Shown here piece by piece: positions 10,485 to 17,331 of a DNA stretch of 35,103 bases. A model generated the notes under the pieces. It had not been told where the DNA came from and searched no databases. It saw only the letters and a list, made by a program, of their open reading frames with translations. Numbering within the stretch: position 1 is the stretch's first letter; the number at the start of each line of letters is the position of its first letter. The translations under genes and the position numbers were made by a program. The stretch lies in contig VGAJ01000009.1 in NCBI GenBank assembly GCA_016870795.1, positions 1 through 35,103 of the forward strand, in the 5' to 3' direction. The DNA is from Actinomycetota bacterium. Its GTDB lineage: Bacteria; Actinomycetota; Actinomycetes; Nanopelagicales; Nanopelagicaceae.

Positions 10485-13118
<2,634 letters not shown>

Positions 13119-13679
13119 TTAGTTTTGGTAGTCCTCGGTCTGGCTATGCGTCGATGAAGAAGCTAGTCCAGTTTCTTGCAAAGTTCTTTCAGCCAAAGTC
13201 GCATCGCCATTTTCTAGCGCAATAAGACCTGATTGAACTAACTCTTTGATGCCAAAGCTTGATAGTTCACCTAGCAACGCTGCAATCTCAGCGCTACTTC
13301 CTATCGCCTCAATGGTAAGGCTGGAGGCAGCCTGGCTAACAATTGAGGCTCGATATTTGCCCACAACAGCTTCAATCTTTGAGCGATTATCTCCAGCGCT
13401 GTTTACCTTAACCATCAAGAGCTCTCTTTGATGGGAGTTCTTATCTTCCATCTCCTGAATGCCGATAACGTTAACTAATTTAAATAGCTGGGCGCTGACC
13501 TGATCTAGTGCGTGGCCCTCAAGATTTAAAACAATTGTAATTCGCGAAATCTCAGGACTCTCGGTTGGTCCCACAGCAAGTGAATCAATGTTGTATCCCC
13601 GGCGAGAAAATAAGGATGCAACCCTGGCTAGAACACCTGGGCTATTTTCAACGAGAACAGAGAGTGTGTGTTGGGCCAT
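13119..13679 (-). CDS. ilvN: Acetolactate synthase small (regulatory) subunit
   Basis: This subunit activates the large subunit and confers valine feedback inhibition. The 186-residue protein has an N-terminal ACT domain (about 4-78) with NSPGVLARVASLFSRRGYNI (13-32), the region that binds valine in homologues, followed by the second ALS small-subunit domain (RELLMVKVNSAGDNRSKI onward). The last ~20 residues (GLASSSTHSQTEDYQN) are a polar tail. It starts 2 nt after the ilvB stop, so the two subunits are coupled. Confidence 0.96.
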   Translation of the reverse strand: MAQHTLSVLVENSPGVLARVASLFSRRGYNIDSLAVGPTESPEISRITIVLNLEGHALDQVSAQLFKLVNVIGIQEMEDKNSHQRELLMVKVNSAGDNRSKIEAVVGKYRASIVSQAASSLTIEAIGSSAEIAALLGELSSFGIKELVQSGLIALENGDATLAERTLQETGLASSSTHSQTEDYQN

Positions 13680-13681
13680 GG

Positions 13682-15421
13682 CTATAACTCCTGTGAATCC
13701 CAGTCAGGTGCCATCTCTTTGGCAATCAAAATATCATCATTAGAAGTTCCGGCAGCCACCATTGGCCAGACCATTGCGTCTCTATGAACGCTAAAGTCCA
13801 CTACAACTGGCGCATCATTGATTGCATTTGCCTCTTTAATGATTTTATCAACATCACCTTTTGACTCACAGCGAAGCCCAACACAGCCCATCGCCTCTGC
13901 AAGTTTTGCAAAGTCAGGAATTCTCTTGGAGTGCAGATCAGTATTTGAATAACGCTCTTTATAAAAGAGAGTCTGCCACTGACGAACCATTCCAAGGCTC
14001 TCATTATTAATAACAGCTACCTTGATTGGAATATCATTTAGGGCGCAGGTTACTAATTCCTGATTTGTCATCTGGAAGCAACCATCACCATCAATTGCCC
14101 AAACTGGAGTATCAGGGGCGCCAACTTTTGCGCCCATTGCTGCTGGAACTGCATAACCCATAGTTCCAAGGCCACCAGAATTTAGCCAGGTTCTTGGTTT
14201 TTCATACTTAACAAATTGTGATGCCCACATCTGATGTTGCCCAACACCTGCAACATAGATTCCATCAGGACCGGTAATTTCTCCGATTCGCTCAATTACA
14301 TATTGTGGTGATAGCGATCCATCACTTGGTTCGTTATATCCAAGGGGATACTTCTGGCGTAGTGAATTCATCTGCTTCCACCACGAAGTGATATCAGCCT
14401 TATTCTTAGCAAACTCAGCCTTAACTGCGGGAATTAGCGCTTTAATGATTGGGCCAAGATCGCCAATAATTGGCACGTCTGCGTAGCGATTCTTACCAAT
14501 TTCTGCCGGGTCAATATCGGCGTGAATTATCTTGGCATTTGGGGCAAATGTAGAGAGTTTTCCAGTTACTCGATCATCAAATCGAGCGCCTAAAGTAATA
14601 AGTAAATCTGCTTTCTGCAGGCCAGTAACAGCAGCAACTGTGCCATGCATTCCGGGCATACCGAGATGCTGGCTATGGCTATCAGGAAAGGCTCCTCTTG
14701 CCATCAAAGTTGTAACAACGGGAGCTCCAACTAGCTCTGCTAGCACAAGAAGTTCTTTTGCGGCATTAGCCTTTATCACTCCGCCGCCGATATAGAAGAT
14801 TGGTTTACTTGATTGAGCGATAAGTGATGCAGCATCTCGAATTGCCTCTGAGTTAGGTTCAATCTGCGGGTTATAACCTAGAAGGTTTAACTTCTTTGGA
14901 TAGTTATAGCTAGTCATCTTCTGTAGCGCATCTTTAGCGATATCAACTAGAACTGGTCCTGGCCTTCCAGATGATGCAATATAAAAAGCTTCAGCAATTG
15001 CCCGCGGAATTTGAGCAGGATCTGTTATCAAGTAATTGTGTTTTGTTACCGGCATTGTGATTCCGCGAATATCAGCTTCTTGGAAGGCATCGGTTCCAAT
15101 AGCAGCTGATGGAACTTGACCAGTGATAGCAACAATTGGAACTGAATCCATCTGCGCATCAGCAATTGGTGTAACTAAATTTGTTGCTCCTGGCCCTGAA
15201 GTTGCAATGCATACCCCAACGCGGCCGGTAACTTGGGCATATCCAGTTGCAGCATGACCAGCTCCCTGTTCATGGCGAACCAGGATGTGGCGAATCTTTG
15301 AATCAAAGATTGGATCATAGGCAGGAAGGATTGCGCCACCAGGAATACCAAACATGACATCAACGCCAGAATCTTCCAGCGCATTAACGAGGGCTTGAGC
15401 CCCTGTTATCTCACTTGCCAT
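13682..15421 (-). CDS. ilvB: Acetolactate synthase large (catalytic) subunit
   Basis: IlvB joins two pyruvates to 2-acetolactate, or pyruvate and 2-oxobutyrate to 2-aceto-2-hydroxybutyrate, using ThDP, Mg2+ and FAD. The 579-residue protein has the three ThDP-family domains: the Pyr domain with the catalytic glutamate E51 in [14 protein letters not shown], the central FAD/TH3 domain (GGGVIKA about 212-218, [13 protein letters not shown] about 275-287), and the PP domain with the ThDP/Mg motif GDG (445-447) to NN (472-473). The ATG has AAGGAG (15431-15436) 9 nt upstream. It is the first structural gene after the attenuator leader at 15468-15572, and its expression is expected to respond to branched-chain amino-acid supply. 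Confidence 0.98.
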
Positions 15422-15467
15422 CTTGGTCCACTCCTTTCTTCCAATTCTTTTTTAGGCCCACTAATGC

Positions 15468-15491
15468 AAAAACCCTCAGTTTCCTGAGGGT
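15468..15491 (-). terminator. Intrinsic terminator (attenuator) before ilvB
   Basis: In the minus sense ACCCTCAG pairs perfectly with CTGAGGGT (8 bp, 15472-15479 with 15484-15491) around a stable GAAA tetraloop, followed by UUUU (15471-15468) and then G. It lies 32 nt ahead of the ilvB Shine-Dalgarno and after a Val/Ile/Leu-rich leader peptide, so it fits a transcription attenuator rather than an end-of-gene terminator. Confidence 0.9.
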
Positions 15492-15568
15492 GCGCGTGAA
15501 CTTTTATCTAGTTCACGCGCAGCGAATCACCACTGAAACAAGTGCTATTACAGAAGTTGATTTCGCTG
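15491..15568 (-). promoter_or_regulatory. Attenuator stem-loops of the ilvB leader
   Basis: Two further stems precede the terminator. H1 pairs 15558-15568 (CAGCGAAATCA) with 15520-15529 (TGATTCGCTG): 10 bp with one bulged A, enclosing the Val/Ile/Leu codons of the leader peptide. H2 pairs 15511-15521 with 15491-15501: 11 perfect bp with a 9 nt loop, whose 5' arm contains the leader peptide stop codon. H1 and H2 share 2 nt, and H2 shares 1 nt with the terminator stem. A ribosome stalled on the Val/Ile codons would break H1; one that reaches the stop would block H2. A fully exclusive antiterminator is not visible, so the exact switch is unresolved. Confidence 0.7.
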
Positions 15569-15572
15569 ACAT
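15513..15572 (-). CDS. ilvB leader peptide (attenuation control ORF)
   Basis: A 19-codon ORF reads MSAKSTSVIALVSVVIRCA and ends in TGA. Seven of its residues are Val, Ile or Leu, concentrated at positions 8-16 (V, I, L, V, V, V, I). The A of its ATG lies 8 nt after the -10 hexamer, so the transcript probably begins at or one base before the ATG and the ORF would be translated as a leaderless mRNA, common in actinobacteria. There is accordingly no Shine-Dalgarno sequence. It plays the part of the leader peptides that control ilvBN-type operons elsewhere, including corynebacteria: scarcity of charged branched-chain tRNAs stalls the ribosome here and alters folding ahead of the terminator. The function is inferred from position and composition; the codons and hairpins are directly seen. 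Confidence 0.82.
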   Translation of the reverse strand: MSAKSTSVIALVSVVIRCA

Positions 15573-15579
15573 GTGGATA

Positions 15580-15608
15580 AGTATCCCCTGATAAAAAGTT
15601 TGAGTCAA
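15580..15608 (-). promoter_or_regulatory. Promoter of the ilvB leader and operon
   Basis: In the minus sense there is TTGACT (15603-15608), a spacer of exactly 17 nt, and GATACT (15580-15585). This is a good vegetative-sigma -35/-10 pair. It predicts a start at about 15572-15573, the A of the leader peptide ATG. It lies in the 233 bp gap between ilvD and ilvB, so ilvBNC-serA-leuB-ilvE-cimA is a transcription unit of its own, apart from ilvD. The -10 overlaps TTATCCACA, which matches a DnaA box but is probably fortuitous. Confidence 0.8.
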
Positions 15609-15638
15609 CCCTTAAGACGGCCATCTCACAATATGAAC

Positions 15639-15652
15639 GGGGATTACTCCCC
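15639..15652 (-). terminator. Weak hairpin after ilvD
   Basis: GGGGA/TCCCC (5 bp, 4 nt loop) lies 2 nt beyond the ilvD stop in the minus sense. It has no U-tract, so it is at most a weak end signal for the gatCAB-ilvD transcript. Confidence 0.25.
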
Positions 15653-15654
15653 TC

Positions 15655-17331
15655 TTAGTCGCAGACCGCGCCCTTTGATGCTGATCCCACAAGCTTTACA
15701 TACTTACCCAATACCCCGGAGGTATACCTACTTGGTAGCGGTTTAAAGCTCTCTCTTCTCTTTGCTAACTCAATTTCATCAACTAACAAATCTAGCGTTC
15801 TTGCATTGATATCAATCCGAATTCGATCGCCATCTTTAACAATTGCAATTGCTCCACCATCACTTGCCTCTGGTGCAACATGGCCCACACATAGCCCGGT
15901 TGTGCCACCTGAGAATCTGCCATCGGTAATTAAGAGAACAGATTTTCCAAGACCTGCTCCTTTAATTGCGCCAGTAATCATTAACATCTCGCGCATTCCA
16001 GGCCCGCCCTTTGGCCCTTCATAGCGAATCACTACAACATCACCTGCTGTAATTGTTCCATCTTCTAAAGCTTGCATCGCTGCTTGCTCTCTATCAAAGA
16101 CTCTGGCAGGTCCTTCGAAGGAGTCAACTCCAACTCCGGCAACCTTTGTCACTGCGCCATCTTTAGCAAGTGAGCCGCTTAAAATTGTGATTCCGCCACT
16201 TACACCGATCGGACTTTTTACCGCTCTTAAGATTTCGCCATCAGGATCTGGTGGATTGATATCCGCTAAGTTCTCAGCCATAGTTTTTCCAGTAACTGTT
16301 AAACAATCACCATGGAGCAGGCCAGCATCAAGTAGGGCCTTTAATATCACCGGAATTCCTCCGACTTTATCGACATCGCTCATAACAAATCTGCCAAATG
16401 GTTTTAAGTCGCCAAGTAGTGGGACCTTTGAGCCAATGCGATGGAAATCATTTAAAGTTAAATCAACCTTTGCTTCATGGGCAATTGCTAGTAAGTGAAG
16501 AACAGCATTAGTTGATCCGCCGAGGGCCATAAGGGCAGTGATGGCATTTTCAAATGCTTGCTTACTCAAAATATCTCTTGTAGTGATTCCCGCTCTTATT
16601 AGCTCAACAACAGCTGCCCCTGACTTAACAGCATAGCTATCGCGCCTGCGATCAACTGCTGGCGGCGCAGCAGAGCCAGGAAGTGATAGACCGATGGCTT
16701 CGCCAACAGTTGCCATTGTGTTTGCGGTATACATCCCGCCGCAGGCACCTTCACCAGGACAGATTGCGCGCTCAATTTTATCGACCTGCTCTTGAGAAAT
16801 TAAGCCTCTGGCGCAGGCTCCAACTGCTTCGAAGGCATCAATGATGGTGACATCTTTTCCATCGACTTGTCCTGGAAGAGTAGAGCCGGCATAAACAAAG
16901 ACGCTAGCAACATCAAGACGCGCTGCTGCCATCATCATTCCTGGAAGAGACTTATCACAACCAGCAAATGTGACCATGCCATCAAATCTCTCTGCTTGCA
17001 TAACTGTTTCCACGGAGTCTGCAATAACTTCTCTTGAAACTAGTGAGAAGTGCATTCCCTCATGGCCCATTGATATGCCATCAGAGACTGAGATAGTGCC
17101 AAACTGCATTGGAAATCCGCCTGCATCAAGGACTCCTTGCTTTGATGCTTTTGCTAAACGATCTAAGGAGAGATTACATGGCGTGATTTCATTCCAAGAA
17201 GATGCAATTCCTATTTGTGGCTTAACCCAATCTTCATCTTTCATTCCTACCGCTCTAAGCATTCCGCGAGCAGGAGCGCGCTCAAGACCATCTGTTACAA
17301 GTCCAGAACGCGGCTTCATTGGATTTGTCAT
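15655..17331 (-). CDS. ilvD: Dihydroxy-acid dehydratase
   Basis: IlvD dehydrates 2,3-dihydroxy-isovalerate and its methylvalerate homologue to the 2-oxo acids, the third common step to valine and isoleucine, using an Fe-S cluster and Mg2+. The 558-residue length is that of the family. The three cluster cysteines are present: C52 (EITPCNLSL), C125 ([12 protein letters not shown]) and C197 ([14 protein letters not shown]). The C-terminal beta-barrel domain shows [15 protein letters not shown] and [21 protein letters not shown]. It begins 13 nt after the gatB stop, so it is read from the upstream gat transcript. It is separated from the rest of the pathway by the ilvB promoter and attenuator, and is therefore probably outside attenuation control. 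Confidence 0.97.

Follow-up and report, generated by a model that had tools for sequence, protein, structure and literature searches.

The window analysed here, a stretch of 35,103 nucleotides covering contig VGAJ01000009.1 of an actinobacterium of the Nanopelagicaceae (source assembly GCA_016870795.1: 1.05 Mb, 65 contigs, 79% complete), carries an ilv locus whose genes and leader all lie on the minus strand, in the order ilvD, leader, ilvB, ilvH/N, ilvC, then serA, leuB and ilvE (Table 1). Nanopelagicales (acI-type) are freshwater actinobacteria, and the closest relatives of this genome, as judged by ilvB, are mostly environmental actinobacterial assemblies. A short hairpin without a U run (GGGGA-GUAA-UCCCC, 15639–15652, minus strand) directly follows the ilvD stop codon.

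Table 1. Genes and leader elements of the ilv locus, listed in the direction of transcription (window coordinates).
Feature	Position	Strand	Basis or remark
ilvD, dihydroxy-acid dehydratase	15655..17331	-	TIGR00110; 5' of the leader, same strand
Operator-like palindrome TGAGATGGCCGTCTTA (putative)	15613..15628	-	stops 4 nt short of the -35
-35 hexamer TTGACT	15603..15608	-	sequence; kept across the genus
-10 hexamer GATACT	15580..15585	-	17-nt spacer after the -35; 7 nt ahead of the leader ATG
Leader peptide ORF MSAKSTSVIALVSVVIRCA + TGA	15513..15572	-	19 codons, 7 Val/Ile/Leu; conserved promoter-ORF unit
Stem A, within the ORF	15521..15567	-	AGCGAA 15567-15562 / UUCGCU 15526-15521; folding; one compensated pair in the genus
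Stem B, 11 bp, candidate antiterminator	15492..15520	-	15520-15510 / 15502-15492; fold and conservation
Intrinsic terminator, 8 bp, GAAA loop	15468..15491	-	15491-15484 / 15479-15472, U run 15472-15468; folding, terminator scan
AAGGAG, likely ilvB ribosome binding site	15431..15436	-	sequence
ilvB, acetolactate synthase large subunit	13682..15421	-	NF005860 and TIGR00118 above cut-off
ilvH/ilvN, acetolactate synthase small subunit	13119..13679	-	TIGR00119
ilvC, ketol-acid reductoisomerase	12066..13100	-	TIGR00465

An earlier note on this DNA had described, ahead of ilvB, a promoter closely followed by an ATG, a 19-codon ORF with seven Val/Ile/Leu codons, two stems and a GAAA-loop terminator with a U-tail, and all of these elements were confirmed at their coordinates. 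The stretch between the -10 hexamer and the start codon reads TATCCAC, the A of the ATG (15572) being the eighth base, and this distance of 7 nt is the value expected of a leaderless leader, i.e., one whose start codon lies at most about 5 nt from the transcript start. Judging from this promoter geometry, the transcript probably starts at or beside the ATG (15572–15573), and the sequence has no Shine-Dalgarno motif at the usual distance 5' of it. Taken by itself, the promoter match is weak (9/12; chance alone gives 0.9 such matches per 501 bp).

Downstream of the start codon, the UGA stop codon of the ORF sits in the 5' arm of stem B, for which a twelfth pair (U15521–A15491) is possible. The predicted fold of 15574–15422 has an energy of -51.4 kcal/mol, shuffled sequences averaging -35.3 (z = -3.99), and one of 200 dinucleotide shuffles is equally good. 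Terminator-like sites are in modest excess over chance (2 vs. 0.3 expected). Since ppGpp riboswitches control ilvB in some bacteria (PMC10272879), the leader might conceivably be a ligand-binding riboswitch or a protein-binding RNA in which the ORF has no role. We consider this extremely improbable: searches with the Rfam 15 covariance models returned no match at the gathering threshold or at E <= 5, the conservation tracks codons and simple hairpins (see below), and the Corynebacterium ilvB-II RNA gave no ppGpp response (PMC10272879). On the whole, the evidence from this single sequence is moderate and, since the promoter match is at chance level when taken alone and the terminator excess is modest, the case for the leader rests on its conservation.

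Within the genus, 22 of 24 genomes contain ilvB, and promoter and ORF could be scored in 21 of these loci (the promoter of L006 contains Ns). Directly upstream of ilvB, stem B and the terminator are present in 22/22 loci, whereas the promoter–ATG–ORF unit is kept in all 21 with readable upstream DNA. The leader peptides, among them MSAKSTSVIALVSVVIRCA, MSANTSSVSIIVSVVVIRCA, MSTNTFSSSVVVIRCA and MTTKTSSLSVVVIRCA, are encoded by ORFs of 51, 60 or 63 nt (stop codon counted), every indel thus amounting to whole codons; synonymous changes occur at Val, Ile and Arg codons, and the end of the peptide, (V)VVIRCA, is constant. The alignment of relatives proposed in the earlier note therefore bore out a conserved short ORF of constant Val/Ile/Leu content in every scorable locus, and the case that the note had named as refuting, a relative retaining the stems after losing the ORF, was not seen among them. 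Regarding the stems themselves, sliding the 3' partners out of register in the genus alignment lowers the fraction of paired cells from 96.6% to 28–47%. Two pairs covary, a G-C of stem A (to A-U) and an A-U of stem B (to U-A or U-G), each being changed on both sides in 7/17 sequences of an otherwise almost invariant region; these two pairs probably reflect one event each and, for this reason, are not used as support for the stems. Just 3' of the U run (15455–15467), a GCATTA sequence lying outside the ORF and the stems is nearly invariant across the genus (L002–L023), and in one locus (L019) several head-to-tail copies of a unit of about 17 nt, AAAAAAGGCGATACCAG, lengthen the spacer between the terminator and the ilvB ribosome binding site.

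Beyond the genus, 80 further ilvB loci were collected and their leaders called where possible. Of 86 called loci, 83 have 6 or 7 nt between the -10 hexamer and the start codon, a count somewhat favoured by the method, as the caller allowed 5–9 nt and slightly preferred 7. A stricter pattern (TTGAC or GTGAC as -35, 16–19 nt, a -10 with at least 3/6 matches, 5–8 nt, then a start codon opening an ORF of 8–32 codons with at least three consecutive Val/Ile/Leu codons) was found in 44/48 loci of the genus and of Nanopelagicales-like organisms (L002–L058) and in 14/48 other actinobacterial ilvB loci, vs. none on the reverse complement and a mean of 0.025 per 48 shuffled sequences (at most 1/48 in 40 shuffles). 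Four loci titled Bifidobacterium breve (L043, L055, L056 and L066) have ilvB genes and leaders resembling the Nanopelagicales-like ones, and their titles are probably wrong. Across Actinobacteria, stem B occurs in 72 different hairpin versions, each position being filled by several types of pair, which documents diversity and is no independent test of covariation, the helices having been drawn from each sequence's own fold. Stem A was not seen among the further actinobacterial ilvB loci.

These spacings bear on whether the peptide is read from a leaderless transcript, as the earlier note had suggested. A real leader peptide could also be translated from a longer RNA, starting further 5' or reading through from ilvD, and such readthrough is possible; yet the conserved -35/-10 pair puts the start at the ATG, a Shine-Dalgarno motif is missing where this reading would call for one, and leaderless ilvB leaders have been mapped in C. 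glutamicum, C. diphtheriae and S. lividans, all of which makes a longer transcript very improbable. A start at or next to the ATG, as the note had it, is thus supported by the spacing conserved across loci, and the arrangement is already established in these three species (PMC11857589, PMC5784534, PMC8079986).

Terminators were called with a fold-based finder, because a perfect-stem finder missed or mis-set those of GC-rich genomes, and the gap between stem B and the terminator is 0 nt in 69/88 actinobacterial loci (22/22 in the genus, 47/66 elsewhere) and at most 3 nt in 64/66 of the loci outside the genus. A stem with 8 bp or more abuts the terminator in 68/89 loci, vs. 22.9 when the sequence upstream of the terminator is shuffled, and lies within 3 nt of it in 85/89, vs. 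43. Moreover, the last Val/Ile codon begins 7–8 nt from the base of stem B in most Nanopelagicales-like loci, the exceptions being L036, L055 and L056 (4–5 nt), L050 and L053 (for which another stem B is predicted) and L057 (a miscalled leader), while the stop codon wanders from 13 nt inside stem B to 5 nt before it. It is therefore the control codons, and not the stop codon, that keep their distance to stem B. This bears on a reading in which the hairpins merely form a (possibly tandem) terminator of ilvD and the short ORF is incidental: ilvD does lie upstream on the same strand, with its stop codon about 165 nt before the terminator, and the hairpin with its U run is a sound terminator site. 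Nevertheless, a promoter and an in-frame ORF rich in Val/Ile/Leu codons are conserved between ilvD and this terminator, and the control codons hold their position relative to stem B even as other spacings change, which renders an ilvD terminator very improbable.

To relate ribosome position to folding, we modelled a ribosome covering 12 nt past the first base of its A-site codon. When the modelled ribosome stalls at the first Val codon of the terminal run, stem B is whole; at the last Ile codon about half of it is left (4.9/11 pairs), and at the stop codon it is fully masked. Stem B is the element controlled by ribosome position, and a sensible response to starvation then requires that it favour readthrough. 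In contrast, thermodynamics lets the terminator fold fully in all three modelled positions, and neither inspection by eye nor ribosome-masked folding found a conserved antiterminator excluding it by base pairing, so that the label of a complete attenuation leader given in the earlier note was too strong. Since stem B and the terminator overlap by at most one base, A15491, whose terminator pair is missing in one relative (L012), strand exchange does not account for the way stem B would block termination. As for the stop codon, it lies 21 nt from the terminator. In E. coli a terminator is repressed when a ribosome sits at a stop codon close to it, full termination being reached beyond about 27 nt (PMC4824070); some leakiness is thus to be expected.

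Altogether, ilvBHC very probably stand under a ribosome-mediated transcription attenuator whose leader peptide would be translated from a leaderless transcript. Pointing to this attenuator are the presence of its parts and their conservation far above that of shuffled sequences, the in-frame length changes and synonymous changes at Val/Ile/Leu codons, the role of the downstream genes in Val/Ile/Leu synthesis, the modelled release of stem B by a ribosome stalled at Val and its masking by one at the stop codon, and experiments on the relatives C. glutamicum and M. tuberculosis. The conservation and the in-frame length changes make attenuation by a Val/Ile/Leu leader peptide, the central proposal of the earlier note, well supported. 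Against it stand the modelled folds, in which no strand competition is evident, and S. coelicolor ilvB, where a change of the candidate regulatory codons is reported to have had no effect (PMC1262725).

From the observed parts, their conservation and their spacing, we infer the start site, the translation of the peptide, the direction of regulation and the mode of antitermination by stem B. Briefly, transcription would begin at or next to the ATG, and a ribosome would load straight onto the 5'-terminal AUG, as actinobacterial precedent suggests. With Val, Ile and Leu tRNAs charged, this ribosome would get to the stop codon and cover the 5' arm of stem B, thereby blocking the stem; the terminator would then form and transcription stop. 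Conversely, once formed, stem B would adjoin the terminator without a linker and hinder it, allowing transcription of ilvBHC, which is the least certain step. One suggestion is a steric effect of stem B at the base of the terminator inside the exit channel of RNA polymerase. That the actinobacterial ilvB leaders make up a distinct class of attenuators, with abutting and non-exclusive hairpins, is an idea we put forward tentatively and regard as rather unlikely.

Upstream of the promoter, the palindrome TGRGAY-N4-RTCYCA (scored as a match to TGRGAYNNNNRTCYCA) ends at a distance of 4 nt from the -35 in all 21 genus loci; it is likewise present, 4 nt or rarely 5 nt from the -35, in 20/24 other Nanopelagicales-like loci, and it occurs in 9/41 other loci, which suggests an added, putative operator. 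A possible candidate for its regulator is an IclR-type gene divergent from leuC (L111, 1–2190; G000:C2, about 86.9 kb), which is how ndgR/ltbR are arranged in other actinobacteria. No clear copy of the palindrome lies in the short intergenic region between leuC and the IclR-type gene, and a loose search yielded 82 sites per strand vs. 30 for a control, too many to define a regulon. Assignment of the palindrome as an NdgR/LtbR site was rejected, as the published NdgR motif differs (PMC4340878).

A limited search of an incomplete literature collection returned no report of such a leader in Nanopelagicales, and the present locus widens the range of an already characterised control logic to include freshwater actinobacteria with small genomes. 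Moreover, the roughly 90 loci provide a natural comparison set, in which the stop codon varies while the distance from control codons to stem and the stem–terminator junction are fixed, and which makes testable how an upstream stem prevents termination in actinobacterial ilvB attenuators.

Several known systems share part of this organization. For Corynebacterium, Mycobacterium and Streptomyces, Seliverstov et al. (2005) predicted that leader peptides and terminators precede ilvB, and the same kind of features occur here, namely a short ORF containing consecutive Val/Ile/Leu codons and, between it and ilvB, a terminator hairpin with a U run. The Corynebacterium ilvB-II motif likewise has upstream ORFs with lengths divisible by three and a terminator stem upstream of ilvB (PMC10272879), but its two-stem model places the antiterminator between the P1 loop and lower P2, whereas the window leader matches no Rfam model. 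The mycobacterial polycysteine attenuators (Canestrari et al. 2020, as cited in PMC13236596) also use a leaderless short ORF, there with cysteine codons and ahead of another operon. In M. tuberculosis ilvB1, for which attenuation was tested with an LVVI-to-AAAA reporter, a Val/Ile/Leu upstream ORF precedes a terminator and the outcome is proposed to depend on ribosome position (PMC13236596); its authors propose mutually exclusive terminator and anti-terminator, while no exclusive pairing was found here.

Leaderless control peptides of ilvB are already known in C. glutamicum, C. diphtheriae and S. lividans, and the leader of the window is very probably a switch of the same kind. RNA-seq revealed leaderless, Val/Ile/Leu-rich peptides upstream of ilvB in S. 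lividans (ilvL, PMC8079986) and C. diphtheriae (PMC5784534), which differ from ours in lineage and sequence (MRTRILVLGKRVG and MNIIRLVVITTRRLP, respectively). For C. glutamicum, the title of Morbach et al. (2000) announces leader peptide formation without a ribosome binding site; the 5' end of the ilvBNC transcript is a single nucleotide away from the ATG of the leader, changing leader Val codons to Ala abolishes the valine response, and an ATG-to-AGG change was also made (PMC11857589). As in this operon, the window combines a probable start at or next to the leader ATG, a short Val/Ile/Leu peptide and a terminator before ilvB. In the 'fast' attenuator of C. glutamicum, made of three hairpins, antiterminator and terminator share only a boundary GCC (PMC11857589), so that the upstream stem overlaps the terminator by very few bases in both organisms, GCC there and the single A15491 here; the peptide (MTIIRLVVVTARRLP) and the stem sequences of C. 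glutamicum are different, and its switch is known from experiments, ours from sequence.
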